64,000 nt of DNA from Cupriavidus alkaliphilus (lineage in GTDB: Bacteria; Pseudomonadota; Gammaproteobacteria; Burkholderiales; Burkholderiaceae), in assembly GCF_900094595.1 (NCBI RefSeq), contig NZ_FMAD01000001.1, positions 620,001 to 684,000 on the forward strand, in the 5' to 3' direction. Positions 22,917 to 42,277 of the stretch are shown one piece after another. The first letter of the stretch is position 1. Each line of letters starts with the position of its first letter. Under the pieces are notes generated by a model. That model saw only the letters and a list, made by a program, of their open reading frames with translations, ran no database searches and had not been told where the DNA came from. The position numbers and the translations under genes are program-made.

Positions 22917-23159
22917 TCAGTCCTCGGCAGCGTTGCCCGCGGACTTGCGCGGGAGCCGGCCGAGCGGTGCCTCGCGCGGCATCGCATGGCGATTGCCGGG
23001 CAAGCCACCGGGGTAGTCGACGATGCGCACGGCGCCCGGGCGCCGCAAGCCATGCCACGCCTGGCCGCCGGCCGTGCGCCCGCCGCCGAGGATGGTGATC
23101 ATGGCCTGCCGGTCGAGATCCATGCTGTCGGGCAAATCCTTGATGACGATCACTGCCAT
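22917..23159 (-). CDS. Double-glycine leader peptide P1
   Basis: A product of 80 residues starting at ATG 23159 behind GGAGA. The first 27 residues (VIVIKDLPDSMDLDRQAM then ILGGG) follow the leader pattern of P2-P5: short hydrophobic start, DL, LD, M and GG. The tail is Gly/Pro/Arg-rich and unlike the Asn-rich tails of its neighbours. Last gene of the P4-P1 run, about 105 bases after P2 with a 10-bp hairpin between. Predicted substrate of the C39 transporter at 36473; no database family recognised. Confidence 0.7.
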   Translation of the reverse strand: MAVIVIKDLPDSMDLDRQAMITILGGGRTAGGQAWHGLRRPGAVRIVDYPGGLPGNRHAMPREAPLGRLPRKSAGNAAED

Positions 23160-23197
23160 GGCTGTCTCCGGTCAAGCGGGACCCCGGCCCTGCGGCC

Positions 23198-23232
23198 GCG
23201 GGACCGCTTCAGTATAGGCGAGGCGGTCCCGC
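23198..23232. repeat. Hairpin between peptide genes P2 and P1
   Basis: GCGGGACCGC / GCGGTCCCGC, a perfect 10-bp inverted repeat with a 15-base loop and no T-run. It may attenuate or stabilise the mRNA so that P1 is made at a different level from P2-P4. Confidence 0.5.
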
Positions 23233-23264
23233 GCTCCTGCCCGCGGGGCCGCACCGCGCTGCGC

Positions 23265-23537
23265 TCAGACGGCGGCAAAGTTGCCGGCCCATTGCGACGG
23301 GTTGACGTTGACGCGCACCGGACCGACGCCGGGGCCGACAAAGCTGTTGTTGAGCGTGTTGACGTTGATGCTTTGCAGCTGCGCGATGTTCTGGTTGACG
23401 TTGACGGTGACATTGGCGAGCGGGCCGACATCGCCGACACCGCGGCTGAGCCACGAGCTGCCGCCGCGTACGGCGCCCAGCGAGGCACGATCGAGTTCCT
23501 TGCTCAGGGCAAGGTCGCGGACGAGGATGGTTGACAT
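23265..23537 (-). CDS. Double-glycine leader peptide P2
   Basis: A product of 90 residues, ATG at 23537 behind AAAGGAGC. Leader LVRDLALSKELDRASLGAVRGG (residues 5-26), cleavage predicted after GG. The 64-residue tail alternates hydrophobic residues and Asn (NVTVNVNQNIAQLQSINVN), a pattern that suits beta strands. Lies between P3 and P1 in one direction with short gaps. Confidence 0.8.
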   Translation of the reverse strand: MSTILVRDLALSKELDRASLGAVRGGSSWLSRGVGDVGPLANVTVNVNQNIAQLQSINVNTLNNSFVGPGVGPVRVNVNPSQWAGNFAAV

Positions 23538-23623
23538 GATGGTGCTCCTTTGAATCGGTGTGGGGCGGCAGGCGCGGAGATTGCTGCGCTCAGGCAGGCT
23601 CCGCGCGCGCTGCGCATCGGCTT

Positions 23624-23893
23624 TCAGCCGAAGATGTTGTTGGTGGCGTTCTGGTTGGTGTGCACGTCGGACTTGACGTGGTCCAGGAAGGCCGAGCCGT
23701 TGCCGTTCAGGTTGGTGACGGACTGCATCTGCGCGATGCTCTGCACGGCGCTGATGCTCTTGTCGACCGACGCCTTGATCGGCATGTAGACGGCGGCGAA
23801 GGGCAGGTAAGACGTGCCGCCGCGTACGGCGTGCATGCGCTTGCTGTCGAGGGTTGCGGCGGCGGACAGGTCCTGGATGGTCAGCGTGGTCAT
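23624..23893 (-). CDS. Double-glycine leader peptide P3
   Basis: A product of 89 residues, ATG at 23893 behind CCGGAGACC. Close paralogue of P4 and P5: leader DLSAAATLDSKRMHAVRGG, tail with MQSVTNLNGNGSAFLDHVKS and TNQNATNNIFG. Only 55 bases separate it from P4, so it shares the sigma-54 promoter of P4. No Cys, so no disulfide or lanthionine chemistry is expected; no modification enzyme is seen in the locus. Confidence 0.85.
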   Translation of the reverse strand: MTTLTIQDLSAAATLDSKRMHAVRGGTSYLPFAAVYMPIKASVDKSISAVQSIAQMQSVTNLNGNGSAFLDHVKSDVHTNQNATNNIFG

Positions 23894-23948
23894 GATGGTC
23901 TCCGGTATCGGTAGTCAGTGTCTGGGTTCGGTGGGCCGGGCGCGAAGC

Positions 23949-24218
23949 TCAGCCGAAGATGTTGTTGGTGGCGTTCTGGTTGGTGCGCACGTCGGACTTG
24001 ACGTGGTCCAGGAAGGCCGAGCCGTTGCCGTTCAGGTTGGTGACGGACTGCATCTGCGCGATCTCCTGCACGGCGGTGATGCTCTTGTCGAGCGACAGCT
24101 TTACCGGGCTGTAGACGGCGGCGAAGGGCATGTAGGCGATGCCGCCGCGCACGGCGTGCATGCGCTTGCTGTCGAGGGTTGCGGCGGAGGACAGGTCCTT
24201 GATGGTCAGCGTGGTCAT
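23949..24218 (-). CDS. Double-glycine leader peptide P4
   Basis: A product of 89 residues, ATG at 24218, first gene behind the sigma-54 promoter at 24299-24314. Leader LTIKDLSSAATLDSKRM then HAVRGG at residues 21-26; the tail is nearly the same as P3 and P5 (IAQMQSVTNLNGNGSAFLDH shared by all three). Its leader region and 5' flank are a near copy, in inverted orientation, of those of P5 at 29.4 kb. The frame is open further upstream to 24638 but the ribosome site (CTGGAGACC) and paralogy fix the start. Confidence 0.87.
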   Translation of the reverse strand: MTTLTIKDLSSAATLDSKRMHAVRGGIAYMPFAAVYSPVKLSLDKSITAVQEIAQMQSVTNLNGNGSAFLDHVKSDVRTNQNATNNIFG

Positions 24219-24268
24219 GATGGTCTCCAGTAGAGGAAGGTGTTGCCTTGGGTTTGGGGTTCGAGCAT
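24215..24268 (-). CDS. Short upstream reading frame overlapping P4
   Basis: Seventeen codons (MLEPQTQGNTFLYWRPS) whose TGA overlaps the P4 ATG as ATGA. The same frame, with two substitutions, precedes P5. No ribosome site is evident, so translation is uncertain; if translated it would couple to the peptide gene. Confidence 0.25.
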   Translation of the reverse strand: MLEPQTQGNTFLYWRPS

Positions 24269-24298
24269 CGGGTTGGTGTCGCGCTCGGGAGGGACAAT

Positions 24299-24314
24299 CG
24301 CAGGGACTGTGCCA
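24299..24314 (-). promoter_or_regulatory. Sigma-54 promoter of the P4-P1 peptide genes
   Basis: On the minus strand TGGCAC-AGTCC-CTGCG, matching the -24/-12 consensus TGGCAC-N5-TTGC except for one base. A predicted start about 12 bases downstream gives a leader of some 70 bases before P4. Confidence 0.82.
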
Positions 24315-24437
24315 GGGCCATGGGAACTTGCGCTGCGCGCGCGCAAGTGCCTGAAAACAAGGGGAATTCAATGCCGATGTCGACCCGGCGGCAGCGCCCG
24401 CGCGGTGCTGCCGGCGCCCCGGTGTGACGGGCCGCGG

Positions 24438-24462
24438 CCAACACTGGCGGCGCCGGTGTTGG
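24438..24462. promoter_or_regulatory. Palindromic upstream activator site A
   Basis: CCAACAC-N11-GTGTTGG, perfect 7-bp arms, 124 bases upstream of the P4 sigma-54 promoter. Equivalent palindromes lie upstream of the other two sigma-54 promoters (sites B and C). A further element AAGTGCCTGAAAACA at 24345-24359 is also conserved upstream of P5 at the same distance (about 30 bases) from the promoter. Confidence 0.6.
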
Positions 24463-24546
24463 TGCCGCCGCGACAGTGCCGCGCGCGGGCGGCCATGGCG
24501 CATGCAAAGCGCGCCGCGGTGCGGTCGCATGCCGTCCTCGCATGGT

Positions 24547-24575
24547 TTGCGCATGCCTTGGGTGCGCACTAGTAT
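24547..24575 (+). promoter_or_regulatory. Sigma-70 promoter of the kinase gene
   Basis: TTGCGC (24547-24552), 17-bp spacer, TAGTAT (24570-24575), then GAGGAGGGGG. GCATGC hexamers at 24500, 24528 and 24551 precede and overlap it and could be an operator. The rest of the 408-base gap between P4 and the kinase holds activator site A. Confidence 0.55.
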
Positions 24576-24626
24576 CCAGCGAGGAGGGGGCATCTCCGCA
24601 GGGCGGGACAGGCCCTGCCAGCAACC

Positions 24627-26711
24627 ATGTCGGGGCATCCCGTGGCCAGTCTCAAAGACCTGATCCGCAAGTTCCAGAACGGTGGTCTCTCCGACGACGA
24701 GTTCGTCGCGTCATTCGAAACGGCCCTGGCGCAAGACCCCACCACGCCGAGCCAGGCGGCGCGGGTGGTGATCGAGGAAAACACGCGCTTTCCGTTTCCG
24801 CCCGCGGTCTATGCCGAAGTCATGCGGCGCATCGAGCGCCGCGGCGCCACCCAATACGATGGCGCCGGCGATGCCACGCGCCTGGCCGGCACGGAAACCG
24901 GCTCGATGTATGCGGCCTCGCCCGAACCCGGCACGCTGCCGCAGACGCCGGCCACCAAGGGCGTGGGCGATACGCTCAACGGTCGCTTCGTGCTGGAGGA
25001 ATGCCTGGGCGTGGGCGGCATGGGCACGGTCTACAAGGCGCTCGACCTGCGCAAGCTGGAAGCCTCGGACCGCCGGCCGTACATCGCCATCAAGGTGCTG
25101 AACCTGCAATTCAGCGGCCATCCCAAGTCGCTGATGGCGCTGCAGCGCGAGGCGCGCAAGGCGCAGACGCTGGCGCACCGGAACATCGTCACCGTCTATG
25201 ACTTCGACCGCGACGGGCCGGTGGTCTTCCTTACCATGGAGTACCTGTCGGGCTCGTCGCTCAACCATGTGCTCAAGGCCCCGGGCTTTGCCGGCATGCC
25301 GATGGCGCGCGCCATGCCCATCATCCAGGGCATGGGCAATGCGCTGGCGTATGCGCACGAGCGCGGCTTCGTGCACTGCGACTTCAAGCCCGCCAACGTC
25401 TTCCTGACGGGCAACGGCGAGGTCAAGGTGATCGACTTCGGCATCGCGCGCGGCTTCCTGCCGCCGGCCGACGAATCCGACCGCACCGTATTCGATCCCG
25501 GTTCGCTGGGCGGCATGACGCCGGCCTATGCCAGCCCGGAGATGTTCGAGCATCGCGAGCCCGACCCCCGCGACGATATCTACGCGCTGGCCTGCGTGAC
25601 CTACGAGCTGCTGAGCGGCAAGCATCCCTACCAGCGGCTCTCGGCCAACCAGGCGCGCGAAGCCGGGCTCAAGCCGGCGCAGCTGCCGCAATTGGGCCGC
25701 ACGCAATGGAAGACCCTGCGCGAAGCGCTTTCGCTCGACCGCGAGACGCGCACGCCGACGGTCGCGCGCTTCCTGCAGGGCATGAGCGCGGCGCCGGCCG
25801 CCAGCAGCGGGCCGGCGCGCCGCTCCGCGCCGTTGGTGGGCGCGGGCGTGCTGACCGCGTTGGCCGGCGTGGCGGCACTCGGCTACTACGCCTGGCAGTC
25901 GCAGCGGCCAGCCGAAGCCCCGGCCGCGGATGCCGGCGCGACCGCGCCGCTCAGCGCTGCCGCGCCGGCCGCGGAGCCGCCCGCCGCGCCCGTGCCGGCG
26001 CCGCCAGCACCCGCGCCAGCCGCCGCGGCGGAGTTGTCGATGGCCGAGGTCGGCAAGCTGCTGGCCGCGGTGCCGTGCTCGCTGCTTGCCGGCGCGCGGC
26101 AGGACCAGACCCTGCACGTGCGCGGCTACCTGGCGGAAAGCGTGGGTGCCGCGCGCCTGCGCGAACAGCTCAGCGGCTTGCCGGGGGCCAAGGCGCTGCG
26201 CGAGGTGGTGGTCGACGCCCAGCCGCTGGCCGCCGACAAATGCGAGGTGGCCAGGATGATCGCGCCGTACTGGTCGGGCAACCGCCAGGGCGAGACCGCG
26301 TCGTCGCTGCAGTTGCGCGGCAAGGGCACGCAATTGACCGAGGGCGCGCCCATGGTGCTCGACCTGCGCACGCCGGCGCAGGATTCCTATGTCTATGTCG
26401 ACTACTTTGCAGCGGACGGCAAGGTGGCGCATATGGTGCCAAGCCAGCGCATTCCGGCCCACCAGGCGCCGCCGGCGCATCACGCCACCATCGGCGACAG
26501 CGGCGACTGGATCGTCTCAGCGCCCTTCGGCAACGAACTGGTGGTGATGCTGACCACGCCGGCGCCGCTGTTCGCGTCGCGCCGTGCCGAGGTGGAGTCG
26601 CGCCAGGAGTATCTGCGGGCGCTGGAAAAGCCGCTGGCGCAGATGGCGCGCACGTATGGCCGCGACCGCATCAGCGCGGACCTGGTGCAGATTTCCACGC
26701 GCGCACGCTGA
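24627..26711 (+). CDS. Membrane Ser/Thr protein kinase with a C-terminal DUF4384-like domain
   Basis: A protein of 694 residues. Cytosolic kinase domain at about 120-390: glycine loop LGVGGMGTVY (127-136), Lys156, catalytic HCDFKPAN (Asp252), DFG (270-272) and SPE (303-305), so it looks active. A membrane segment follows at about 401-423, an Ala/Pro linker, then a periplasmic part with a DUF4384-like domain (LRTPAQDSYVYVDYFAADGK). The N-terminal part carries the motif YDGAGDAT (77-84), which also occurs in the FHA protein of this locus. This layout resembles PpkA-type kinases of type VI secretion. It probably phosphorylates the FHA protein, opposed by the PP2C phosphatase at 40937. Confidence 0.9.
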   Translation: MSGHPVASLKDLIRKFQNGGLSDDEFVASFETALAQDPTTPSQAARVVIEENTRFPFPPAVYAEVMRRIERRGATQYDGAGDATRLAGTETGSMYAASPEPGTLPQTPATKGVGDTLNGRFVLEECLGVGGMGTVYKALDLRKLEASDRRPYIAIKVLNLQFSGHPKSLMALQREARKAQTLAHRNIVTVYDFDRDGPVVFLTMEYLSGSSLNHVLKAPGFAGMPMARAMPIIQGMGNALAYAHERGFVHCDFKPANVFLTGNGEVKVIDFGIARGFLPPADESDRTVFDPGSLGGMTPAYASPEMFEHREPDPRDDIYALACVTYELLSGKHPYQRLSANQAREAGLKPAQLPQLGRTQWKTLREALSLDRETRTPTVARFLQGMSAAPAASSGPARRSAPLVGAGVLTALAGVAALGYYAWQSQRPAEAPAADAGATAPLSAAAPAAEPPAAPVPAPPAPAPAAAAELSMAEVGKLLAAVPCSLLAGARQDQTLHVRGYLAESVGAARLREQLSGLPGAKALREVVVDAQPLAADKCEVARMIAPYWSGNRQGETASSLQLRGKGTQLTEGAPMVLDLRTPAQDSYVYVDYFAADGKVAHMVPSQRIPAHQAPPAHHATIGDSGDWIVSAPFGNELVVMLTTPAPLFASRRAEVESRQEYLRALEKPLAQMARTYGRDRISADLVQISTRAR

Positions 26712-26760: not shown

Positions 26761-27990
26761 CTATTTCATGTCGCGTGCCACGCGAAAGCCGTTCTGCGAT
26801 TGCCGCACGCTCGGGCTGTACTTGAAGCGCGTCGACGACACCATGTAGCTGGCGCCTTCGCGCCACGAGCCGCCGCGGATGACACGCGCCCCGCAGGCGT
26901 TCTCGTTCCATGCGCGCCCGTCGGTGGGCGCGCCCTTGTACGAGCTGTGCCAGCAATCGGCGACCCATTCCCACACGCTGCCGTTGACGTCATGCAGGCC
27001 GTAGGGGTTGGCCGCGAACGAGCCCACCGGGGCCGGCGCATCCTGGCTCCACGGATCGCCGCAGTCCTTGCAGTTGGCATTGCCCTTGCGCATCTGGTCG
27101 CCCCACCAGTAAGTGCTGGCACTGCCGCCGCGCGCCGCGTATTCCCATTCCGCCTCGGTGGGCAGGCGGTAGCTCTTGCCGGTGGTCTTGCTGAGCCACG
27201 CCACGTACTGCTGCGCGTCGTCCCAGCTGACGTCGCGGACCGGTGCGTTCTTCGCGCTGTCGGCGAGGGTGGGAATGCGCTGGCAGCCGCCGGCGTCGGC
27301 ACAGGCGTTCCATTGCTCGACCGTGACTTCATAGCGGCCGATGGCAAAGGGCTGGCCGATGGCGACCTGATGCGGCGGCTTTTCGGCCGGGTCGCTGGCG
27401 TTGCTGCCCATGGTGAAGCTGCCCGCCGGCACCGTGACCAGCGCCGGGCAGGCCGGGCAATCGCGGATCTCCGCAGTGCGCAGCGTGGTACTGACCACGC
27501 CGTCGCCCGCCGTGCCGGCGCGCGGCGCCGTGGCCGGTGGCGCCGGTGCGGGCGCTGAAGGACGCGCGGCCGCGGGCGCGGCCGGTGCAGCCTTGGCCGG
27601 GGGTGCCGAAGCCGTGGCTGGCGCCGGGGATCGCGAGGCCTGTCCGCCGGCCGTGGCGCCGGCGCGTGGCTGCGGCGCGGGCGCCTGCGCCTTGGGCGCG
27701 GGGGCGCTGCCCGCCAGGCGCTCGAGCCGCGCCCTGGCCAGTCCCGCGAAGCGGCCGTTGGGGTACTGCTTCAGGTAGGCCTCGTAGTCGGCGGCGTAGT
27801 TGCTGTTCTTGATCGATTCCCAGAAGCTCAGCTCATACTGCTCGTCGGTGTTCTTCGGCATGATGCCGGCGAGCAGTGTCCGGGCTTGCGCCGGTTCGCC
27901 GGCCGCGGGCATTGCCGTGGCGAGCAGCCCTGCCGTGACGGCCATCGGGATCATCGCAGCCACGCGTACCACTGGTAGGTTGCGCCACAT
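26761..27990 (-). CDS. Exported SUMF1/FGE-fold protein without the catalytic cysteines
   Basis: A protein of 409 residues from ATG 27990 (GAGG upstream), beginning with a signal sequence ([18 protein letters not shown]... AAG). A short repeat-like segment ([20 protein letters not shown]) is often found in stress and caspase-type proteins. After a Pro/Ala linker comes the sulfatase-modifying-factor fold ([51 protein letters not shown]). The Cys pair used by true formylglycine-generating enzymes near the end is missing ([17 protein letters not shown]), so it is more likely a binding or regulatory protein in the periplasm. Convergent with the kinase gene. Confidence 0.85.
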
Positions 27991-28280: not shown

Positions 28281-28706
28281 ATGTCCAGACGATTCCTGCT
28301 CCGCCTGCTGGCGGCCACCACGCTGGCCGTCGCGCCGTCGCTGTCGTTGCCGACGGCAGCCCCGCCCAATGCCGAGGCTTATATCATCTGGCCGCACGAC
28401 GGCGCTGTCATCGGCGGCGGCAAGTTCTGGGTGCGCATGGGCCTGCGCAATATGGGCGTATGCCCCAAGGGCGTCGAATCGCCACGCTGCGGGCACCATC
28501 ACCTGCTGATCGATACCGAGCTGCCACCGCTCGACAAGGAAATCCCGTCGGACAAGAACCACCTGCACTTCGGCGCGGGCGAGACCGATGCGCGCATCGA
28601 ACTGCCGCCCGGCAAGCACACGCTGCAATTGCTGATGGGCGACGCCAAGCACGTTCCGTTCGAGCCGCCGATCTATTCGAAGAAGATCACCATCACGGTG
28701 AAATAG
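28281..28706 (+). CDS. Exported DUF4399 protein, copy 1
   Basis: A protein of 141 residues with an N-terminal signal ([20 protein letters not shown]) and one DUF4399 domain. His-rich segments [14 protein letters not shown] and [14 protein letters not shown] could bind metal. Preceded by GGGGAGGCG. Copy 2 follows 49 bases downstream. The function of the family is unknown to me; exported location is inferred. Confidence 0.8.
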
Positions 28707-28755: not shown

Positions 28756-29184
28756 ATGTCCCGACTACTTGCCGCGGCTGTCTTCGCCGTCAGCCTGTTG
28801 CTGTCCGCGTGGGTGCAGGGCGGCCCCACGGCTGCGCCGCCCAATGCCTATCTGTACATCGGCTGGCCCAATGACGGGCAGACCCTGCCCGCCGGCAAGC
28901 CGTTCAAGGTGTGGTTCGGGCTGCGCAACATGGGGGTGGCGCCCAAGGACGTGAAGTTTCCCAATACCGGCCACCATCACCTGCTGATCGACGTGGAGCT
29001 GCCGCCGATGGACAAGGAGATTCCCAACGACCGCAATCACCTGCATTTTGGCGCTGGCGAGACCGAGACCATGATCGAGCTGGCGCCGGGCAAGCACACG
29101 CTGCAGCTGCTGATGGGCGATGACAAGCACATACCGACCAACCCGCCGGTATATTCCAAGCGCATCACGATCTACGTAAAGTAG
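28756..29184 (+). CDS. Exported DUF4399 protein, copy 2
   Basis: A protein of 142 residues, a tandem paralogue of copy 1 with the same GHHHLLID and [10 protein letters not shown] segments and a clear signal sequence. Unlike copy 1 it lacks the Cys pair ([16 protein letters not shown] in copy 1). The ribosome site is GGGGAGAGC. It is the last gene before the P5 unit. Confidence 0.8.
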   Translation: MSRLLAAAVFAVSLLLSAWVQGGPTAAPPNAYLYIGWPNDGQTLPAGKPFKVWFGLRNMGVAPKDVKFPNTGHHHLLIDVELPPMDKEIPNDRNHLHFGAGETETMIELAPGKHTLQLLMGDDKHIPTNPPVYSKRITIYVK

Positions 29185-29391: not shown

Positions 29392-29407
29392 TGGCACGGT
29401 CCCTGCA
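29392..29407 (+). promoter_or_regulatory. Sigma-54 promoter of P5
   Basis: TGGCAC-GGTCC-CTGCA, matching the -24/-12 consensus. The 80 bases that follow are almost the same as those downstream of the P4 promoter. Confidence 0.85.
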
Positions 29408-29757: not shown

Positions 29758-29778
29758 GAGGATGGTTGAGATGGCGCA

Positions 29779-34282: not shown

Positions 34283-35661
34283 AGGACGATGCCCGCCACG
34301 CCGGCCTCAAGCCACTGTCCGAGGCGCTGGAAGACCACAGCGCCGAAGGCATCGGCCTGCTCAGCGCCGAGCCGTCGCGCCTCGGCCTGCTGACCATCGT
34401 CACCACCTTCGCCCTGGTGTTGTGCGGGCTGGTCTGGTCGTTCGTCGGCCACGCCGATGTCATCGTCACCGCGCAGGGTACGCTGGCGCCGGAGTCCGAG
34501 GTGCGGCGCTTCTATGCGCCGGTGGACGGCGAGCTGGCCGACCTTTACGTGGCGGAAGGGCAGCCCGTTTCCAAGGACGATGTGCTGGCGCGCCTGAATG
34601 CGCGCGGCGCGATCGAGGCCGCCGCCAACGCGCTGGAGGCGCAGCTCAAGCTGGAAGACTCCGAACGCGAGTGGAAGCAGTTCCCCGACAAGAAGGCGCT
34701 GATGGAACGCCGCGCGGCGGCGCTCAAGCAGCAGATTGACGTGGCCACGCGCCAGCACGAGACCCGCATCGCCGAAGGCACCACGCGGCTGGCCGAGCAG
34801 CAGCGCGCCCAGTTGCAGGAGGCGCGCAGCAACCTGGACAACGCGCGGCGCGCGCGCGAGTTCGCGCGCCAGGAGCAGGACCGCTATGCGCGCCTGCTGG
34901 CGCTGCCCGGCGGCGGCGGGGTTTCGCAATCGCAGGTCGACGCCAAGCGTGCCGCGGCGCAGGACGCGGAGAACAACCTGCGCGTGGCGCAGTCGCGGCT
35001 GGGCGAACTGGAGGCGCGCCTGGGCCGCGAGCTGACCCAGGCCAGCTCCGAGCTGGAAAGCAGCGGCCAGGACCTCGCGGGGTTGCGCGTGCAATATGAC
35101 GCGGCGCTGCGCGAGATCGCCAATACCGAGGACAAGCTGCGCCTGCAGGTGCAGACCGCCCGCCTGGTGGCGGACGCCGCCGCGCGCATCCGCTTCGAGA
35201 ACATCGACAAGGACAACTTCCTGCTGATCCTGGCGCCGGTGTCCGGCGTGATCACCGACGTCACCTCGACCCAGCGCGGCGACAAGATACAGGCCAATAC
35301 GCCGCTGGGCGGCATCGCGCCGAAGGATGCGCGCCCGGTGGTGAAGATCGTGATTGCCGAGCGCGACCGCGCCTTCCTGCGCGAAGGGCTGCCGGTCAAG
35401 CTCAAGTTCAATGCGTTCCCGTACCAGCGCTACGGGATCATCGATGGCACGCTCGAGTTCATCTCGCCCGCGACCAAGCCGGGCGGGCCTGACAAGCAGC
35501 CGGTCTACGAGGGCCGCGTGCGCCTGGCGCGCGACTATTACACCGTGGCCGACAACAAGTACCCGCTGCGCTATGGCATGACCGCCACGGCGGAGATCGT
35601 GGTGCGCGAACGGCGCCTGATCGACCTCGGGCTCGATCCCTTCCGCGAGGTGGCGGGCTAG
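34279..35661 (+). CDS. HlyD-family membrane-fusion protein
   Basis: A protein of 460 residues: short cytosolic start, one membrane helix (about 35-57), split biotinyl-lipoyl-like domain ([20 protein letters not shown] and [19 protein letters not shown]), a long coiled coil between them and a beta-barrel with C-terminal [19 protein letters not shown]. It links the ABC transporter to the outer-membrane channel. ATGA overlap with the FHA gene shows coupled translation. Confidence 0.93.
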
Positions 35662-35739: not shown

Positions 35740-36492
35740 ATGACTGGCATCGTGCGTATCGACGACGAGGTGCTCGGGGTCGAGGAATTCGTGCGCCTGC
35801 TCAAGCTGACCGGGCAGTTCGAAGGACTGGTCGAGCAGATCGTGCGCGACAAGCTGACCGTGCACGCCGCCAGGCGGCAGGGGCTGGTGGTCACGCCCGA
35901 AGAGATCCAGGAACGCGCCGACCAGTTCCGCCGCGTGCAGGGCCTGCATCGCGCCGCCGACATGAACCACTACCTGGATGCGCTCAATGTCAGCCTGGAC
36001 GAGTTCGAGGCCTTCATTACCGACAGCCTCTATCAGGAGCGGATGATGGCGCAGGTGTGCAGCGACGCGGCGGTGCAGGAATACTTCGCGCTGAACTCGC
36101 CGCGCTTCGACAGCATCGAGGTCAGCCATATCGTGGTCGACAGCGAGGGCAAGGCCAGGGAGTTGATCTCGTACCTGCAGGACGACCCCGACGCCTTTGC
36201 CGAGATGGCGCGCGAGCACTCCATTGCCGACACGCGCGAGCGCGGCGGCGAGATCGGCAAGGTGCTGCGCGGCTCGCTCAAGACCGAGATCGAGGCCAAG
36301 GTCTTCAACGCCGAGCCGGGCGACCTGCTGGGGCCGTTCCCGGCCGCCGACCGCTCGTTCTTCGAGGTCTTCCTGGTGCGCGCCAAGCACCCGGCCACGC
36401 TCGACAGCGAGGTGGCGGTCGAGGTGCGCCGCCTGCTGCGCGAGGACTGGCTGATGGCCAGGGCGCAGGAACATGTCATCGAAGCCCGCTAG
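35740..36492 (+). CDS. Cytosolic parvulin-type peptidyl-prolyl isomerase
   Basis: A protein of 250 residues with a SurA-like N-terminal helical domain and a parvulin domain (EVSHIVVDSEGKARELISYL... DTRERGGEIGKVLRG... GDLLGPF). No signal sequence or membrane helix, unlike periplasmic PrsA/SurA, so it should act in the cytoplasm, probably keeping peptide substrates or the transporter competent. Its end overlaps the ABC gene by 20 bases. Similar isomerases occur beside cyanobacterial C39 exporters. Confidence 0.88.
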   Translation: MTGIVRIDDEVLGVEEFVRLLKLTGQFEGLVEQIVRDKLTVHAARRQGLVVTPEEIQERADQFRRVQGLHRAADMNHYLDALNVSLDEFEAFITDSLYQERMMAQVCSDAAVQEYFALNSPRFDSIEVSHIVVDSEGKARELISYLQDDPDAFAEMAREHSIADTRERGGEIGKVLRGSLKTEIEAKVFNAEPGDLLGPFPAADRSFFEVFLVRAKHPATLDSEVAVEVRRLLREDWLMARAQEHVIEAR

Positions 36493-39400
36493 CGAGGCCG
36501 GACCGGCCGGCGCCGCCACCGCCGCGCCGCAGCCGGAGGCGGGCCCGGCGCTGGCCGCTTTCCTGGCGTCGGTCGAGATCCTGTCGGTGCTGACGCCGGA
36601 AGAACTGGCACGCCTGGCCGACGCCGCGCAGGTGCTGAGCTTTGGCTTTGGCGACACCGTCTGCAATGCCGGCGAAACCGCGCCGGGCCTGTTTATCGTC
36701 AAGTCCGGCTCGGTGCGCGTGTTCAACGAGGAGCACGGCAAGGAAATCAGCATGGGGGTGCGCAAGACCGGCGAGGTCTTTGCCGATCTCGCGCTGCTGC
36801 GCGAGTACCGGCACGAGTCGTCGGTGCGCGCCTCGGGCAAGACCGAGTTGCTGATGATTCCGCGCACCGTCAGCGAGCCTGTGGTGGCGGGCAACCCCGC
36901 GGCGCTGGCCTTCATCACCAGCTATGTCGCGATCAGTTCGGCCGGCGGCTTTGTCGCGCGGCTGTTCGACCTGCGCGGCAAGCTCGACAAGCAGGAACTG
37001 GAAGACGCGGTGCGCAGCGTCGGCGTGAAGCGCGTGGCGGCCGGCCGGGAAATCCTGAAGCAGGACGGACGCGAGGACCGGCGCCTGTACGTGGTGCGCC
37101 AGGGCACGGTGCGCATCGTGCGCAGCGAAGAGGGCAGCGAGTTTCCGCTGGCGACGCTGGGCCAGGGCGATATCTTCGGCGAGCGCGCCTGCGTGATGCG
37201 GCAGGAGCAGCTCGCGTCGGCCATTGCCGAGACCGACGTGCGCCTGCTGGTGATTCCCGAGAAAACCGTACAGCTGATCCTCGAGCGCAATCCGCGCCTG
37301 CGCGAGGTGCTCGAGGAGCGCATCCGGGTGCTGGACCGCGAGCTGCATCGGCAAAAGAAGCTGGCCGAACGGCGCAAGCGCCCGGTACTGCTTGACCTGG
37401 CCTCGAAGCCGGAGCTGGGCGAGAAGCTGATTCGCCGCTTCGCGCTGGTGGAGCAGGCCGAGGAAATGGATTGCGGCGCGGCTTGCCTGGCGATGATCTG
37501 CCGGCACTACGGCATCCCGATGACGCTGGGCAAGCTGCGCGAACTGGCCAACGTCACCACGCAGGGCGCCACCCTCGACAGCCTGGCGCGGGCGGGGGAA
37601 TCGCTGGGCTTCACCACGCGCGGGGTGCAATGCACGCGCGATTCGCTGATGGGCTTCGAGCTGCCGTTCATCGTCCATTGGGAGGGCTACCACTACGTGG
37701 TGGTGTACGGCATCTCCGCGCGCTGGGTCTGGGTGGCCGACCCGGCCATCGGCTTCCGCAAGATGAGCGCCGAGGAGTTCGAGCGCGGCTGGAGCGGCAC
37801 CTGCCTGCTGTTCGCGCCGGGCGAGAGCATGACGCAGCTGTCGGTGCAGCGCTCGCCGTGGCTGCGCTTCATCGGCTACCTGGCACCCTACAAGAAAATC
37901 CTGGCGCACCTGTTCCTGGCGACCTTCGTGATCCAGATGCTGGGGGTGGTGCCGCCGCTGATCATCCAGAACATCCTGGACGGCGTGGTGGTGCACCAGA
38001 ACGTCGGGCTGCTGCACCTGCTGATCGCGGGGCTGATCATCTCCAGCGTGTTCTCGCAGCTGATGTCGACAATCCGCGCGTACCTGGCCAACTTCATGGT
38101 GCGCAACATGGATTTCGCCATGATGTCGCACTTCTTCAGGCACACGCTGTCGCTGCCGCTGTCGTTCTTCGCCAAGCGCAAGACCGGCGATATCTTCGCG
38201 CGCTTCCAGGAGAACCAGACTATCCGCGCCTTCCTGACCGAATCGACGGTGACCACGGCGCTGAATCTGCTGATGGTGTTTATCTACTTCACCATCATGT
38301 TTCTCTACAACGTCAAGCTGACGCTGCTGCTGATCGCCTTCGTGATCCCGATCGCCGCGCTGACGGTGGTGGTGACGCCGCGCGTCAAGACCTATGCGCG
38401 CGACGTCTTCGCGACCGCGACCGATGCCAAGGCCTACCTGATGGAGACGCTGGGCGGCGCCGAGACCGTCAAGGGCATGGGCATCGAGCGCCCGGTGCGG
38501 CTGCGCTGGGAGCGCAAGTACACCAAGGCGCTGGAGTCGCAGTACAAGGCGCAGCAGTTCCATATCCTGGTGGGGCTGGCGAGCCAGCTGCTCAACGCCG
38601 CCACCACCATCGCGGTGCTGTGGGTGGGCGCGACGCTGGTGCTGGAGCGCGAGCTGACCATCGGCCAGCTGATGGCCTTCAACGCCTTCATGGGCAGCGT
38701 GCTGGCGCCGCTGATGGGACTGGTGGCGCTGTGGGGCCAGCTCAACGATGCCGGCGTGGCGATGGAGCGGCTGGGCGACGTGCTCGACCTGGAGCCGGAG
38801 CAGAAGCCGCAGGACGTGCTGTCGCGCGTGATGCTGCCCGACCTGCAGGGCGAGATCGTGATGAAGGACCTGTACTTCCGCTACGGCGGCGAAGACACGC
38901 CTTATGTGCTGGAGAACATCAGCTTCACCATCCGGCCCGGCGAGATGGTGGCCATCGTCGGCCGCAGCGGCTCGGGCAAGACCACGCTGGCCAAGCTGCT
39001 GGTCGGCTTCTACAAGCCCACCGAGGGTTCGATGACGGTCGACGGCTACGACCTGAACGTGATCGACGCGGCGTTCTACCGCGCCCAGGTGGGCTACGTG
39101 ATGCAGTCCAACCTGCTGTTCTCCGGCACCATCGCCGAGAACATCGCCTGCGGCGACGACAGCCCGGAGCGGCGCCGCATCGAGGAAGTCGCGCGCATGG
39201 CCGACGCGCATGCCTTTATCAGCAAGCTGCCGCTGGGCTACGAGCAAGTCGTCGGCGAACGCGGCATCGGCCTGTCTGGCGGGCAGATCCAGCGGCTGTG
39301 CATTGCGCGCGCGCTGTACCACGACCCGCGCCTGCTGGTGTTCGACGAAGCTACCTCGGCGCTGGACACGCAGTCCGAGAGCAACATCCTGGCCAATATG

Positions 39401-39583
39401 CAGGAAATCCTGCGCGGGCGCACCGCGGTCATCATCGCGCACCGGCTCAGCACCATCATGCAGGCCGACAAGATCCTGGTGCTGTATGAAGGCGCCATCG
39501 TCGAGCAGGGCCGGCACGAGGAACTGCTGGAGCGCAAGGGCATGTATTTCCAACTGGTGCAGAAGCAACTGAGCGCAGCATGA
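36473..39583 (+). CDS. C39 peptidase-containing ABC transporter with two cyclic-nucleotide-binding-like domains
   Basis: A protein of 1036 residues. Two cNMP-binding-like domains at about 30-150 and 180-300; a C39 peptidase at about 320-450 with Cys334 (MDCGAAC), His407 and Asp423 in place; six-helix membrane domain at about 465-760; ATPase at about 790-1036 with GRSGSGKT (830-837), LSGGQ (934-938), DEA (958-960) and His990. It should cut the leaders of P1-P6 after GG and export the tails. The cNMP-C39-ABC layout is known from HetC and the NHLM bacteriocin transporters. Starts inside the parvulin gene and overlaps the activator gene by four bases. Confidence 0.95.
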   Translation: MSSKPASEAGPAGAATAAPQPEAGPALAAFLASVEILSVLTPEELARLADAAQVLSFGFGDTVCNAGETAPGLFIVKSGSVRVFNEEHGKEISMGVRKTGEVFADLALLREYRHESSVRASGKTELLMIPRTVSEPVVAGNPAALAFITSYVAISSAGGFVARLFDLRGKLDKQELEDAVRSVGVKRVAAGREILKQDGREDRRLYVVRQGTVRIVRSEEGSEFPLATLGQGDIFGERACVMRQEQLASAIAETDVRLLVIPEKTVQLILERNPRLREVLEERIRVLDRELHRQKKLAERRKRPVLLDLASKPELGEKLIRRFALVEQAEEMDCGAACLAMICRHYGIPMTLGKLRELANVTTQGATLDSLARAGESLGFTTRGVQCTRDSLMGFELPFIVHWEGYHYVVVYGISARWVWVADPAIGFRKMSAEEFERGWSGTCLLFAPGESMTQLSVQRSPWLRFIGYLAPYKKILAHLFLATFVIQMLGVVPPLIIQNILDGVVVHQNVGLLHLLIAGLIISSVFSQLMSTIRAYLANFMVRNMDFAMMSHFFRHTLSLPLSFFAKRKTGDIFARFQENQTIRAFLTESTVTTALNLLMVFIYFTIMFLYNVKLTLLLIAFVIPIAALTVVVTPRVKTYARDVFATATDAKAYLMETLGGAETVKGMGIERPVRLRWERKYTKALESQYKAQQFHILVGLASQLLNAATTIAVLWVGATLVLERELTIGQLMAFNAFMGSVLAPLMGLVALWGQLNDAGVAMERLGDVLDLEPEQKPQDVLSRVMLPDLQGEIVMKDLYFRYGGEDTPYVLENISFTIRPGEMVAIVGRSGSGKTTLAKLLVGFYKPTEGSMTVDGYDLNVIDAAFYRAQVGYVMQSNLLFSGTIAENIACGDDSPERRRIEEVARMADAHAFISKLPLGYEQVVGERGIGLSGGQIQRLCIARALYHDPRLLVFDEATSALDTQSESNILANMQEILRGRTAVIIAHRLSTIMQADKILVLYEGAIVEQGRHEELLERKGMYFQLVQKQLSAA

Positions 39584-40923
39584 AGCTATACAACCAGGGT
39601 GCCACCCCCGTCTCGGTGACTTCGCCGGTGTCGTTCGCCGGGCTGATCGAGAAGATCGAGATCCTGCGCTCGACGCTGCGCTGGGCGTCGAAGCTTGACC
39701 GGCCCGAGATCGAGAAGCTGCTCAAGCAGGCCACCACGCTGCGCGACGAGGTGATGGGCCTGTCGCACAAGGAGCGCTTCGTGCAGGCGGCATCGTCTGC
39801 CGAAACCGCGGCCGGAGCCACGGCCGGGGACGCGCCGCCGCAGCCGGAGGTCGAGCGCCTGCCGCGCGAGCGCCGCCAGGCGCTGATGGAGCGCAGCTTT
39901 ATCTTCGAGGGGACCTTCGGCGACAACCCGCGGCTGCTCGAGGCGCTGGAAATCGCCGAGAAGGCCGCGCCGACCGACCTGCCGGTGCTGATCGACGGCG
40001 AAAGCGGCACCGGCAAGGAGCTGATGGCCAAGGTGATCCACGCCAACGGCGCGCGCACCGACAAGCCGTTTATCTCGGTCAACTGCGGTGCCATTCCGGA
40101 TAGCCTGCTCGAATCCGAGTTGTTCGGGCACAAGAAGGGCGCCTTCACCGGCGCCAGCAACGACCGGCGCGGCAAGTTCGAGAGCGCGCATACCGGCACC
40201 ATCTTCCTGGACGAGATCGGCGAACTGCCGCTGACCGGGCAGGTCAAGCTGCTGCGCGTGCTCGAGGCGCACGAGATCCAGCGGGTCGGCTCGGACGAGA
40301 TCATCTCGGTCGATGCGCGCATCGTCGCCGCGACCAACAAGGACCTGCGCCGGATGAGCCAGGCCGGCACCTTCCGCGAGGATCTGTTCTATCGCCTGAG
40401 CGTGATCCACGTCAGCCTGCCGGCGCTGCGCGAGCGGCGCGACGAGATCCCGCTGCTGGTGTCGTACTTCAGCGACGAGGCCGCCGGCATGCTCCGGCGC
40501 GCGCCGGTCAGGCTGACGCCGCGGCTGCGCGACTTCCTGCTGCACTACGACTACCCCGGCAATATCCGCGAACTGCGCAACCTGCTGTACCGGCTGAGCT
40601 GCCTGGCCGGCGATACCGCCGACCTGCCGCACCTGCCGCAGGACATCCGCCCGAAGCCCGCGGCGCTGGCGGTGGTAGGCGCCGGTGCGTCCGGCGCGGA
40701 CCTCGCCATGGCGACCTCGCTGAGCGAAGCCAAGCGCGCGGCCAGCGACGAGGCCGAGCGCGCCTTCCTCGAGCGCGGACTGCAGGAGGTGGGCGGCACG
40801 GTTGCCGAACTGGCGCGGCGCTTCGACATGAACCGCTCGCACCTGCAGATGCTGCTGAAGAAGCACGGCATCCACTCGAAGGACTTCCGCGCCAGCCGGC
40901 AGGCCGAGGCCGGCAAGGGCTAG
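39580..40923 (+). CDS. Sigma-54-dependent activator of the peptide genes (proposed)
   Basis: A protein of 447 residues. AAA+ domain at about 108-345 with GESGTGKE (140-147), GAFTGA (187-192) and TIFLDEIGE, so it can contact sigma-54. C-terminal Fis-type helix-turn-helix (GGTVAELARRFDMNRSHLQM). The 100-residue N-terminal part is helical and is neither a receiver, GAF, PAS nor FHA domain; the input signal is unknown. Last gene of the exporter operon. Three sigma-54 promoters with palindromic upstream sites in this locus are its likely targets. Confidence 0.9.
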   Translation: MKLYNQGATPVSVTSPVSFAGLIEKIEILRSTLRWASKLDRPEIEKLLKQATTLRDEVMGLSHKERFVQAASSAETAAGATAGDAPPQPEVERLPRERRQALMERSFIFEGTFGDNPRLLEALEIAEKAAPTDLPVLIDGESGTGKELMAKVIHANGARTDKPFISVNCGAIPDSLLESELFGHKKGAFTGASNDRRGKFESAHTGTIFLDEIGELPLTGQVKLLRVLEAHEIQRVGSDEIISVDARIVAATNKDLRRMSQAGTFREDLFYRLSVIHVSLPALRERRDEIPLLVSYFSDEAAGMLRRAPVRLTPRLRDFLLHYDYPGNIRELRNLLYRLSCLAGDTADLPHLPQDIRPKPAALAVVGAGASGADLAMATSLSEAKRAASDEAERAFLERGLQEVGGTVAELARRFDMNRSHLQMLLKKHGIHSKDFRASRQAEAGKG

Positions 40924-40936
40924 GGCGCGGCGGGCT

Positions 40937-41713
40937 TCAGGCGTCGAGCTCGGGGTTGACCAGGGTGCGGTCCGATCCGCAAGGGTCGGCGGCGCGCAGC
41001 ACCACCACCGAGATGTTGTCGCGCCCGCCCGCATCGAGCGCCTTGTGCACCAGCGTCAGCGCGGCCTGCGCCACGTCCTGCTGCGCCAGCACCGCGGCAA
41101 TCTCGTCGTCGTCGACCTCGTTGCTCAGGCCGTCGCTGCACAGCAGGTAGACGTCGCCGTCGGCCACGTCGGTCAGCAGCTGCTCCGGCGCCAGCGTCGG
41201 CGCCGCGCCGACGGCGCGCGTGATGGTGTTCTGCGCGGGATGGTGGCGCGCCTGCTCCGGCGTGATCAGGCCGCGCGCGAGCAGGCGCTCGACCTGGTTG
41301 TGGTCGCGCGTCAGACGCGCCAGCTGGCCGCCGCGCAGCCGGTACAGGCGGCTGTCCCCTGCCCACAGGCAGGCACAGCGGCTGTCGCCGGCCAGCAGGA
41401 CCACCACCGTGCTGCCGATGCAGCGCACGCCCAGGCGCGCGGCTTCGTCGACCAGCGCCAGGTTCACCCCCTGCAACGCCGCGCGCGCGGCGTCGATGCG
41501 GTCTTCCAGCCGCGCTTGCGGCGGCAGCGCTGTCAGGGCCCTTACCACCGCCTGGCTGGCGAAATCCCCCACCGCATGGCCGCCCATGCCGTCGGCCACG
41601 GCCCACAGTTCCTGCCCGGGCAAATCCAGGCAAGCGTCCTCATTGCGCTCGCGCACGCGCCCGACGTCCGTGCACGCCGCCGAGGTCCACCGGAAATGCG
41701 AGTCGAAACCCAA
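40937..41713 (-). CDS. PP2C-family protein phosphatase
   Basis: A protein of 258 residues. A TTG at 41713 is chosen because GGAGG lies five bases before it; another TTG at 41737 is in frame but has no such site. PP2C motifs: DVGRVRERNEDA, VADGMGGHAVGD, GDSRLYRL, CSDGLSNEVDD and GRDNISVVV, with the metal-binding Asp residues present. It is the natural counterpart of the kinase at 24627 and resembles PppA. It follows P6 by 66 bases in the same direction and probably shares the P6 sigma-54 promoter. Convergent with the activator gene. Confidence 0.9.
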   Translation of the reverse strand: MGFDSHFRWTSAACTDVGRVRERNEDACLDLPGQELWAVADGMGGHAVGDFASQAVVRALTALPPQARLEDRIDAARAALQGVNLALVDEAARLGVRCIGSTVVVLLAGDSRCACLWAGDSRLYRLRGGQLARLTRDHNQVERLLARGLITPEQARHHPAQNTITRAVGAAPTLAPEQLLTDVADGDVYLLCSDGLSNEVDDDEIAAVLAQQDVAQAALTLVHKALDAGGRDNISVVVLRAADPCGSDRTLVNPELDA

Positions 41714-41779
41714 TCTGGCCTCCGCTGCGATCCGCAACGCTCCACGCCAGCGCCTGCCGGCGCCCGGGGTTCGGCCGGA

Positions 41780-42073
41780 TCAGACCAGCCTGCCGTCGTT
41801 CCTGGCACCCTGGTCGCCCCGGACATTGATGTTGGCGTTTGGTGCGTTGTTGCGGATATCGATGTTCTGGAACTGGTTGTTTATCTGATCAGCATAGAAG
41901 CTGTAGTTGATCTCGTAAAAGTTGATCACCGTGCCGAGCGGCGCCGGCGACGACGCCACGAACGGGCGGATCCAGCCGAACACCCACTGTCCACCCGCGC
42001 CGCGTACGCGCGCCATGGCGGCGGGAGCCAGTTCGCGGCAGCCGGCAAGGTCATTGATCGAGAGGGTGGCCAT
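41780..42073 (-). CDS. Double-glycine leader peptide P6
   Basis: A product of 97 residues, ATG at 42073 behind CCGGAGACC. The leader (TLSINDLAGCRELAPAAMARV) matches P1-P5 but ends RGAGG rather than RGG, so the cut site may differ. The tail is aromatic at first, then Asn-rich (NFYEINYSFYADQINNQF, and NANINVRGDQ). Single Cys in the leader only. Confidence 0.82.
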   Translation of the reverse strand: MATLSINDLAGCRELAPAAMARVRGAGGQWVFGWIRPFVASSPAPLGTVINFYEINYSFYADQINNQFQNIDIRNNAPNANINVRGDQGARNDGRLV

Positions 42074-42125
42074 ATGCGGTCTCCGGTGGAAGGCGCCGAT
42101 GCGCCGGGGGCGGTATGGGTGGTTG

Positions 42126-42141
42126 AGCAAGCGGCGTGCCA
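42126..42141 (-). promoter_or_regulatory. Sigma-54 promoter of P6 and the phosphatase
   Basis: On the minus strand TGGCAC-GCCGC-TTGCT, a perfect -24/-12 consensus, 53 bases before the P6 ATG. Confidence 0.88.
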
Positions 42142-42251
42142 CTGACGGGTAGCGGAACGGCCCAGGCCCTGATCCGGGGCCTGGCGCGGGTTCCGGGCAG
42201 GGCGGGGGACCAGCCGCCACTTGCAGCCGGCGCCGCCGCGTTGGCTGCGCG

Positions 42252-42277
42252 CCGACACCCTGGCACGCCGGTGTCGG
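42252..42277. promoter_or_regulatory. Palindromic upstream activator site C
   Basis: CCGACAC-N12-GTGTCGG, perfect 7-bp arms (8 counting the next base pair), 111 bases upstream of the P6 promoter. Same pattern as sites A and B. Confidence 0.6.

Follow-up and report, generated by a model that had tools for sequence, protein, structure and literature searches.

It is fairly probable that a gene cluster in Cupriavidus alkaliphilus forms one sigma-54 regulon in which small peptides are processed and exported under a threonine-phosphorylation module like that of type VI secretion systems (T6SS). In this genus and soil-dwelling relatives, the exporter, the phosphorylation switch and their own activation circuit are inherited as one unit and thus probably function together. 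In the window (the whole 64 kb stretch of DNA analysed, to which all positions refer), open reading frames and Pfam matches (Pkinase, FGE-sulfatase, OEP, two FHA, HlyD, PPIC rotamase, C39 and ABC, Sigma54_activat, and PP2C) place every gene named in a preliminary description between 22917 and 42073. The TolC-like channel, HlyD, C39 ABC transporter, parvulin, kinase, PP2C phosphatase, twin-FHA protein, SUMF1-fold protein and sigma-54 activator listed there are all confirmed by Pfam. Six leader peptides are likewise present, but only five end in GG as described, with the sixth, P6, ending in GA. A tRNA-Arg gene (42390-42464) and an integrase gene starting at 42633 come next, so the cluster ends on this side. 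The two cNMP domains on the ABC exporter, a pair of DUF4399 genes and the promoter logic had gone unmentioned.

The exporter has the parts of a PCAT type I system, namely a C39 ABC protein, a membrane fusion protein and an outer-membrane channel. The ABC protein (36473..39583, + strand) combines two cNMP-binding domains with a C39 peptidase and with ABC membrane and ATPase domains; the two PF00027 (cNMP) stretches precede C39, the order expected of a HetC-like protein. Its peptidase (PF03412, 9.2e-40) retains the catalytic Cys, His and Asp, and the motifs DCgAAC, GYHY and DP are conserved across 49 sequences. The NodT-type, TolC-like outer-membrane channel (29942..31402, +; PF02321, 2.8e-52; start codon GTG assumed) scores 321.6 bits against TIGR01845, above the cut-off of 210, and the HlyD-type membrane fusion protein (34279..35661, +; PF13437, 1.2e-19) scores 165.6 bits against TIGR01843, below its cut-off. 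Between HlyD and the ABC gene lies a parvulin-type prolyl isomerase (35740..36492, +; PF00639, 5.2e-11), in whose sequence no signal peptide or hydrophobic segment was seen. Double-glycine-type leaders, which mark the substrates of such exporters, are present, and from sequence the exporter is predicted to trim these small peptides and probably also to export them.

Three further genes are part of the cluster. The SUMF1/FGE-fold protein (26761..27990, -; PF03781, 1.1e-60) has an N-terminal hydrophobic segment and occurs in 36/39 relatives. A role as formylglycine enzyme for peptide Cys was considered and is unlikely, because mature peptides contain 0.3% Cys (298 candidates) and the closest solved relative is PvdO. 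The two DUF4399 proteins (28281..28706, +, PF14347, 2.2e-38; and 28756..29184, +, PF14347, 1.6e-35) each carry an N-terminal hydrophobic segment, are each found in 36/39 relatives, and are probably exported.

Four of the leader peptides lie in a row on the minus strand: P1 (22917..23159; leader profile E 6.3e-12), P2 (23265..23537; 1.8e-11), P3 (23624..23893; 1.9e-12), a paralog of P4 and P5 that is absent from the profile, and P4 (23949..24218; 3.6e-13). P5 (29488..29757, +; 4.7e-12) and P6 (41780..42073, -; 3.1e-12) stand apart. P2 has orthologs in relatives. P1, whose mature part contains RIVDYPGGLPG, has orthologs in loci L098-L105, where such peptides adjoin the kinase gene in genomes in which the kinase has moved. 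The leader profile, built from 16 leaders of which five come from this window, gave six matches at E <= 1.8e-11 in the whole 6.1 Mb genome, all at this locus and including P3; no further leader of this type was found there, the seventh match having an E of 1.9. In the loci of 40 relatives, the leader pattern recovered 121 peptides, against 2 when those loci were reversed. At least 4 of the 298 mined peptides (L048 14994, L059 7491, L061 12187 and L076 2140) resemble chance ORFs, a figure that comes from inspecting 60 of the 120 in their group, and such ORFs were kept in the peptide counts.

These peptides could be antibacterials of the class II microcin type and their cluster an unusually regulated bacteriocin operon, a tentative reading of the cargo that is compatible with the switch. 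The GG leaders, C39 exporter, HlyD and TolC resemble microcin V systems, and there are several leader-peptide paralogs per genome. However, no immunity gene adjoining the peptides was recognised, and P6, which is present in 63/70 full-length named loci, keeps 40-63% identity across genera. The mature parts of the 298 candidates, being Asn-rich, poor in charge and almost free of Cys, would also suit surface fibres or signals. The AlphaFold model of P6 (mean pLDDT 41.3) is uninformative.

The peptide genes form three units, P4-P3-P2-P1, P5 and P6, each with one promoter and one palindrome. Sigma-54-type -24/-12 promoters matching perfectly are found at 24300..24314 (-; TGGCACAGTCCCTGC), 81 bp from the P4 start codon, at 29392..29406 (+; TGGCACGGTCCCTGC), 81 bp from that of P5, and at 42127..42141 (-; TGGCACGCCGCTTGC), 53 bp from that of P6. 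They are the only three perfect matches in the 64 kb, and each is directly ahead of a peptide unit. With up to one mismatch, 15 matches to the pattern were found in the window against 18.1 expected, which is not above chance, and perfect matches in the whole genome (67) barely exceed the control (56), so the perfect promoters are meaningful by position only. Across relatives and the window, 189/296 peptide starts have a promoter score of at least 7 of 8, compared with 5/296 when shuffled.

Farther upstream than each promoter lies a palindrome of consensus CCRACA-N13/14-TGTYGG, probably an operator: CCAACA-N13-TGTTGG between P4 and the kinase gene (24438..24462), CCAACA-N14-TGTTGG upstream of P5 (29243..29268), just ahead of which is an overlapping TGTTGG-N7-CCAACA, and CCGACA-N14-TGTCGG upstream of P6 (42252..42277). 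Among relatives, 43/46 palindrome sites in family loci and 100/112 in named loci fall 100-420 bp before a mined peptide, with 0 and 3 sites, respectively, in reversed sequences, the consensus having been defined on the same sequences used for counting. The same holds for 8/10 sites in kinase-side loci, and the C. alkaliphilus genome itself has 8 sites, 3 of them at this cluster, against 0 in the control. A palindrome near a mined peptide is absent from 16/39 family loci and 19/80 named loci. The P1-type peptides of the kinase-side loci L098 and L103-L105 have the palindrome, and their best promoter reaches just 4-6 of 8. Another palindrome, CGAGCA-N6/7-TGCTCG, sits downstream of the promoters and was rejected as the operator. 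The likely ligand of the CCRACA sites is the cluster's own sigma-54 activator (39580..40923, +; PF00158, 7.9e-70), which has GAFTGA in its translation, an N-terminal region of about 95 aa and no receiver domain. Promoters at the peptide units and a GAFTGA activator thus occur together, as in a sigma-54 regulon.

The phosphorylation module consists of three proteins. The membrane Ser/Thr kinase (24627..26711, +; Pkinase, 6.4e-38) combines a Hanks kinase on the cytosolic side, a single TM segment at about 400-421 and a C-terminal DUF4384-like region whose match falls below the DUF4384 cut-off; AIK, HCDFKPAN and DFG are conserved in 29 sequences. The twin-FHA membrane protein (31631..34282, +) has Pfam FHA domains at 77-125 and 190-240, a conserved T299-T300-F301, a TM segment at about 370-395 and an all-helical part at about 395-857. 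Its AlphaFold model has a mean pLDDT of 80.4, mostly above 90 in the helical part, for which the best 50 PDB matches shown, nearly all FHA domains, include no convincing one. FHA domains usually use Arg at the phosphate-binding position; in FHA2 the residue there is Lys. The PP2C phosphatase (40937..41737, -; PF13672, 3e-13) has no TM segment, ends in the tail DRTLVNP and scores 202.8 bits against NF033484, below the cut-off of 230.

Each of the three has a conserved Thr motif, TTF in the FHA proteins, TVFDP in the kinases and T-x-x-N-P in the phosphatases; these are short and only loosely alike, in a comparison limited to Thr and the residues after it. A common form, [DE][RK]Tx[FVLI], is found in 40/42 FHA proteins and 31/37 phosphatases but fails for the kinases, with just 4/29; it also occurs by chance in 18/43 TolC proteins.

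Phosphorylation might instead control the sigma-54 activator, in which case the module would act on transcription and export itself would be ungated. The activator, with that N-terminal region but no receiver domain, would need a partner; all three peptide units bear its likely sites, and peptide genes with the palindrome adjoin the moved kinase. The reading is nevertheless rather unlikely. In the FHA protein, a membrane segment is followed by an extensive helical region, and its gene directly precedes HlyD, all of which points to the envelope machine, while the loose Thr motif is found in just 7/46 activators.

It is very improbable that the module belongs to a T6SS and is merely displaced here. 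Kinase, FHA protein and PP2C are encoded together in the window, as in the T6SS threonine pathway outlined in PMC3953482 and PMC12607579. However, the sole VipB gene found lies on contig C13, on which no FHA domain was found, and the window is on C21, which disfavours a T6SS origin of the three genes.

Genome comparisons support the link between module and exporter well. The preliminary description had proposed a search for co-occurrence as a check on its claim and named unlinked module genes in relatives as evidence against it. The FHA protein occurs in 40/150 family genomes, and the same 40 hold the parvulin (at least 368 bits) and the kinase (more than 500 bits). In the other 110, nothing matches the FHA protein at E <= 1e-5, the parvulin is matched three times but weakly, and the kinase once, at 108 bits; five genomes of the same genus that are listed as lacking the FHA protein, the parvulin or the kinase lack all three. 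TolC, FHA, HlyD, parvulin and ABC genes are clustered in 39/39 fetched relatives, with PP2C nearby in 38/39 and the remaining locus interrupted by a contig start. Linkage is thus borne out for FHA and PP2C but incomplete for the kinase, which is linked to the exporter in 27/40 genomes, apart from it in 9/40 and hidden by contig ends in 4. The nine, all of one genus, still encode it, and in 8/8 of these loci examined leader-peptide genes with an upstream palindrome adjoin the moved kinase, which argues for function and against chance adjacency.

Among 80 named loci, of which 70 are full length, these 70 all contain ppi, abc and sig54; fha, tolC and hlyD occur in 65 and pp2c in 64. Three of the five exceptional loci, from Noviherbaspirillum, contain the complete set within 25-34 kb, with the gene order permuted. 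About 41 kb separates the cluster halves of Herbaspirillum sp. ST 5-3, and the cluster of Noviherbaspirillum denitrificans is fragmented. That a general kinase/phosphatase pair adjoins the exporter by chance and without function, as the kinase's location elsewhere in 9/40 genomes might suggest, is the least probable reading of all given co-presence in 40/40 genomes, near absence from the other 110, palindromes at the moved-kinase loci and permuted yet complete clusters in three Noviherbaspirillum genomes.

Outside the family, an FHA gene adjoins 4/5 exporters of the same build at 30-36% identity and 2/2 closer ones (63-66%). Around these seven relatives, no kinase was found in the fetched stretches and PP2C in one alone; in that fetched from a distant relative, G294, the FHA protein, parvulin and activator are all absent. 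An order-wide search of 300 genomes (E <= 1e-40) recovered the FHA protein from just 3, each belonging to this family, and the exporter from those 3 alone.

In the favoured reading, one regulon would make, trim and export a small set of peptides under two layers of control. The activator would bind CCRACA-N13/14-TGTYGG and turn on the promoters of P4-P3-P2-P1, P5 and P6. Cleavage by the C39 domain behind GG or GA would free the peptides of their leaders, and the processed peptides would exit via ABC-HlyD-TolC, with the cytosolic parvulin perhaps holding precursors open for export. The membrane kinase, sensing a periplasmic cue, would phosphorylate itself on the activation loop (T287) and the FHA protein at T299/T300. 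The FHA domains would then bind the phospho-Thr sites, so that the exporter complex is built or opened, and we infer that phosphorylation acts here on export rather than on transcription. The helical part of the FHA protein, presumed periplasmic, would reach HlyD, PP2C would reset the switch, and the cNMP domains may contribute a nucleotide signal.

If this is true, secretion machines of different kinds are controlled by eukaryotic-type Thr phosphorylation, type I peptide export is open to post-translational switching, and DUF4399, the Asn-rich peptide family and an exporter-tied parvulin gain a setting. Many environmental Burkholderiaceae share the conserved cluster, and with its defined set of cargo peptides, its probable operator and its candidate sites of phosphorylation it lends itself readily to direct testing.

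Several known systems share parts of this build. Microcin V exporters of the CvaAB-TolC type combine a GG leader, a C39 ABC exporter, a HlyD-type protein and TolC, all found here; to our knowledge, they have no kinase, FHA protein, phosphatase, parvulin, cNMP domain or sigma-54 activator. In GarA/OdhI and DgcB, phosphorylation turns a Thr motif lying outside the FHA domain into a ligand of that domain, whereas the motif here, predicted only, sits between FHA2 and the TM segment of a membrane protein. We know of no C39, HlyD, TolC or leader peptides in the mycobacterial Rv1747 system.

Rv1747, an ABC exporter of Mycobacterium tuberculosis, is positively modulated by PknF (PMC3908365) and bears two FHA domains (PMC5549992). 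A Ser/Thr kinase, an ABC exporter and two FHA domains go together in both cases, but in Rv1747 the FHA domains lie inside the exporter itself, and its cargo is thought to be a cell-wall component. The T6SS pathway, made up of PpkA, Fha and PppA (PMC3953482, PMC12607579), similarly ties a membrane kinase with a periplasmic C-terminus, an FHA protein and a PP2C to a secretion machine. Here, by contrast, a type I peptide exporter takes the place of the T6SS, of which the cluster has no gene, and the FHA protein differs from T6SS Fha in its two FHA domains, TM segment and subsequent helical part. HetC of Nostoc PCC 7120 has the same cNMP, C39 and ABC architecture; PMC10986499 describes it as thought to be nucleotide-regulated, with ppGpp binding in vitro, and reports no membrane fusion gene or leader peptide gene in its neighbourhood. 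Unlike HetC as described there, the present cluster adds HlyD, TolC, parvulin, six leader peptides, two cNMP domains and kinase/FHA/PP2C.

The preliminary description knew of no account of an exporter combined with kinase, FHA protein and phosphatase. Among the literature matches listed none describes it, but PknF-Rv1747 (PMC3908365) is a partial precedent, in that a kinase modulates an ABC exporter with FHA domains there too. New here are the perfect -24/-12 promoters and the shared palindrome ahead of each peptide unit. The chances are about even that the cluster represents a type I secretion class of its own, where a dedicated membrane kinase, a twin-FHA envelope scaffold and a PP2C gate a C39 exporter by reversible Thr phosphorylation in the manner of type VI secretion, and where a sigma-54 activator encoded in the cluster governs a peptide regulon, scattered in some cases, via one conserved operator.

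All genes that the preliminary description listed in this cluster are present as open frames within 22917-42073, and family searches bear out the families it named. From left to right they are the leader peptide genes P1, P2, P3 and P4 (all leftward), the kinase (rightward), SUMF1 (leftward), two DUF4399 genes, P5, TolC, FHA, HlyD, parvulin, ABC and the sigma-54 activator (all rightward), then PP2C and the leader peptide gene P6 (both leftward). Absent from that description were the DUF4399 pair, which is part of the gene set, the two cNMP-binding domains forming the N-terminus of the ABC protein, and the promoter and palindrome control sites. The closest named relative of the parvulin is from Cupriavidus neocaledonicus (100% identity). 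The right border is a tRNA-Arg (CCT) gene at 42390-42464, after which comes a phage-type integrase from 42633; a mobile element probably begins here, directly past the peptide cluster (42390-43835). Elsewhere in the window, 17382-20122 holds an EgtD-type histidine methyltransferase (TIGR03438, above cut-off) and, after it, an EgtB/SenA-like protein that fits the model for the selenoneine synthase SenA best, though below cut-off.

The proposed tie between the kinase/FHA/PP2C module and the exporter is matched by genome-wide co-occurrence in the family set (150 genomes, own genome counted), where the FHA protein and the strong parvulin and kinase matches occur in the identical 40 genomes. Parvulin matches were found in 43 genomes, 40 of them at 368 bits or more and exactly the FHA-positive 40, while the three further matches are weak (E 6e-7 to 7e-6). 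The kinase was found in 41, with exactly the same 40 above 500 bits and one further match at 108 bits. In the stretches around the FHA gene, fetched for all 39 relatives, TolC, FHA, HlyD, parvulin and ABC are present in 39/39, the activator in 38, and SUMF1 and the two DUF4399 genes in 36 apiece. PP2C lies within 34 of these stretches and, because four further PP2C genes turned up somewhat further along (L108, L139, L259 and L260, fetched loci of relatives), nearby in 38/39. The absent activator and one absent PP2C are accounted for by a single locus that starts at a contig start (L075).

Physical linkage of kinase and exporter holds in part. By coordinates, no more than about 25 kb separates kinase and FHA gene in 27 of the 40 genomes. 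The two are apart in nine, all belonging to one genus (g9): five with both genes on one contig at a distance of 104 kb to 1.05 Mb (G030, G081, G108, G116, G132) and four with the kinase on a different contig, the exporter lying well inside its own (G061, G100, G124, G139). In four others, a contig end blocks placement (G071, G091, G118, G146). Yet the separated kinase keeps its peptides. In all eight of the nine separated regions that were fetched (L098-L105; G139 left out), a P1-type leader peptide adjoins the kinase and a palindrome of the type described below lies upstream of a peptide; four also have P2 and P4 types beside the kinase. In L098 and L103-L105, the best promoter match upstream of the P1-type peptide reaches just 4-6 of 8. 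In a ninth kinase-side locus, the 5.9 kb contig L106 of G071, the palindrome was not found near a mined peptide.

The gene set extends to named species. A scan of one genome per species gave 225 places with parvulin relatives; the best 80 of 225 come from Cupriavidus, Paraburkholderia, Pandoraea, Noviherbaspirillum, Herbaspirillum and a few records under other names. Among these 80, the 70 full-length loci all hold parvulin, ABC and activator, with FHA, TolC and HlyD in 65 each, SUMF1 in 66, one DUF4399 gene in 64 and the other in 65, PP2C in 64 and P6 in 63 (40-63% identity across genera); the kinase count of 37/70 reflects a 10 kb flank that often stops short of it. Four Noviherbaspirillum loci and one from Herbaspirillum have no FHA gene nearby, and all five genomes encode the protein elsewhere (in N. 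denitrificans, where the cluster is split up, as two separate pieces). N. massiliense, N. autotrophicum and N. galbum carry permuted clusters of 34, 25 and 25 kb: parvulin-ABC-activator comes first, PP2C and the peptides follow, and kinase-SUMF1-DUF4399 pair-TolC-FHA-HlyD comes last. The cluster ends of Herbaspirillum sp. ST 5-3 lie about 41 kb apart on one contig, and PP2C was not found within the stretches examined. An extra gene with an FHA match sits between the DUF4399 pair and TolC in Noviherbaspirillum and Herbaspirillum clusters and in the MAG behind L210 (L204, L205, L207-L210), with an open frame of 660-688 aa where a frame was reported.

At E <= 1e-40, three of 300 order genomes, the own genome among them, encode the FHA protein, and the same three, all belonging to this family, encode the exporter. 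A search of 274 class genomes with the exporter's cNMP-C39 portion gave matches in eight genomes at E <= 1e-30, own included. Two of these genomes, G345 (66% identity) and G312 (63%), hold TolC, FHA, HlyD, parvulin, ABC and activator. Among five exporters at 30-36% identity, the FHA gene is beside ABC in four (G250, G282, G382, G395), the activator is present in three, parvulin in three (one by Pfam only) and PP2C in one; the G294 stretch yielded none of FHA, activator, parvulin and PP2C. The seven stretches outside the family, several of them cut off at contig ends, showed no kinase. Some relatives' loci have further neighbours. In L095 (14663-19223), the neighbours of a distant exporter relative (35% identity) include a LapD-type GGDEF-EAL protein, a LapG-like Peptidase_C93 protein and a ShlB-type pore, a hint of a surface-adhesin link in that group. 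L096 (31-5800), likewise a distant cluster, has VWA-domain and ATP-grasp proteins and PP2C beside activator, parvulin and exporter, and in L092 (12476-15238), a cluster relative, the gene adjacent to TolC codes for a caspase-like (Peptidase_C14) protein containing Sel1 repeats.

Sequence and alignment give one pattern common to all six leaders, M-x6-D-L-x5-L-x4-[ML]-x2-[VI]-x-G-[GA]. A profile of 16 leaders, five from the window with P3 left out, was run over the 6.1 Mb genome; blind to leaders of different build, it gave six matches at E <= 1.8e-11, all within the cluster and including P3, and its next match had E = 1.9. A regular expression mined 298 candidate peptides, at least four of which resemble chance, from 121 of 144 sequences searched; in 40 control loci, it gave 121 matches vs 2 in reversed sequences. 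Their mature parts average 13% Asn, 6% Gln and 0.3% Cys, with few charged residues.

The window contains three perfect sigma-54-type promoters (TGGCAC-N5-YTGC), each on the correct strand for its peptide: 24300-24314 (minus strand, 81 bp to the P4 start codon), 29392-29406 (plus, 81 bp to P5) and 42127-42141 (minus, 53 bp to P6). No own site was found for P1, P2 or P3, which probably belong to the same transcription unit, after P4. Genome-wide, the perfect pattern has 67 matches vs 56 in the control, so position is what counts. Of the mined peptide starts, 189/296 have a promoter scoring 7 or 8 of 8 within 160 bp, vs 5/296 when shuffled, and 187 of the 189 sit 40-89 bp before the start codon. 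Each window promoter is accompanied by a palindrome of the form CCRACA-N13/14-TGTYGG; the three start at -244, -245 and -204. The whole genome holds eight such sites, three of them in the cluster, and the control none. With spacing widened to 12-16, a mined peptide follows at 100-420 bp for 43 of the 46 palindromes in the family loci and for 100 of the 112 in the named loci, a set that overlaps the family set in genomes; the reversed sequences gave 0 palindromes in 752 kb and 3 in 1.6 Mb, respectively. In 16/39 family and 19/80 named loci, some cut short, there is no palindrome near a mined peptide. The motif was defined on these same data, and its strength therefore lies in position and conservation. 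Its linkage suggests that the cluster's own activator binds it as a likely operator. Past the promoter and 58-65 bp ahead of the peptide start, L062, L064, L067, L099, L101, L102 and other loci carry a separate inverted repeat, CGAGCA-N6/7-TGCTCG (17 sites across the 752 kb of family loci, 0 in the reversed control), which may form a hairpin where the peptide mRNA begins. A sigma-70-like match (9 of 12) at 31537-31564 stops 66 bp short of the FHA start codon, so the exporter operon may have its own transcription start; matches of this kind count as weak evidence (3 observed vs 1.1 expected).

Catalytic residues are conserved in the kinase (29 aligned sequences), phosphatase (37) and C39 peptidase (49), as are both FHA domains' SRRHA and NGT signatures (31). 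The AlphaFold model of the FHA protein has two such domains, a flexible linker and, past the membrane segment, a region predicted with confidence to be entirely helical. Between FHA2 and that segment, T299-T300-F301 is invariant in 27 aligned proteins and is followed by a conserved SFLDIF; the kinase activation loop carries a conserved TVFDP and the PP2C tail T-x-x-N-P. We read these Thr motifs as candidate phospho-Thr sites that the FHA domains could bind, the predicted residues being T287 in the kinase, T299/T300 in the FHA protein and T258 in PP2C; their mutual likeness is loose, and the pattern tried also matches 18/43 TolC proteins. GarA and OdhI, with a Thr motif outside the FHA domain, are precedents for such a ligand. 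Solved DgcB FHA-tail complexes provide a further precedent for FHA binding a tail.

In the account that fits best, the activator would set transcription of the peptide regulon, the C39-HlyD-TolC machine would trim and export the peptides, and the Thr-phosphorylation switch would add a further layer of control. Its target could be the activator, and hence transcription, the exporter, or both. We favour the exporter because the membrane-bound FHA protein is encoded directly before HlyD.

Type VI secretion is switched on when PpkA phosphorylates Fha or TssL (PMC3953482; PMC12607579). In mycobacteria, PknF modulates the ABC exporter Rv1747 (PMC3908365), which has two FHA domains (PMC5549992). HetC unites cNMP and C39 domains within one exporter (PMC10986499), a build common to HetC and the window ABC protein. 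A genome paper on Paraburkholderia fungorum gives TolC and LapE under type I secretion. Among the matches listed in a full-text literature search, which covered few subscription papers, no description was found of a C39 peptide exporter linked with a kinase/FHA/PP2C module.
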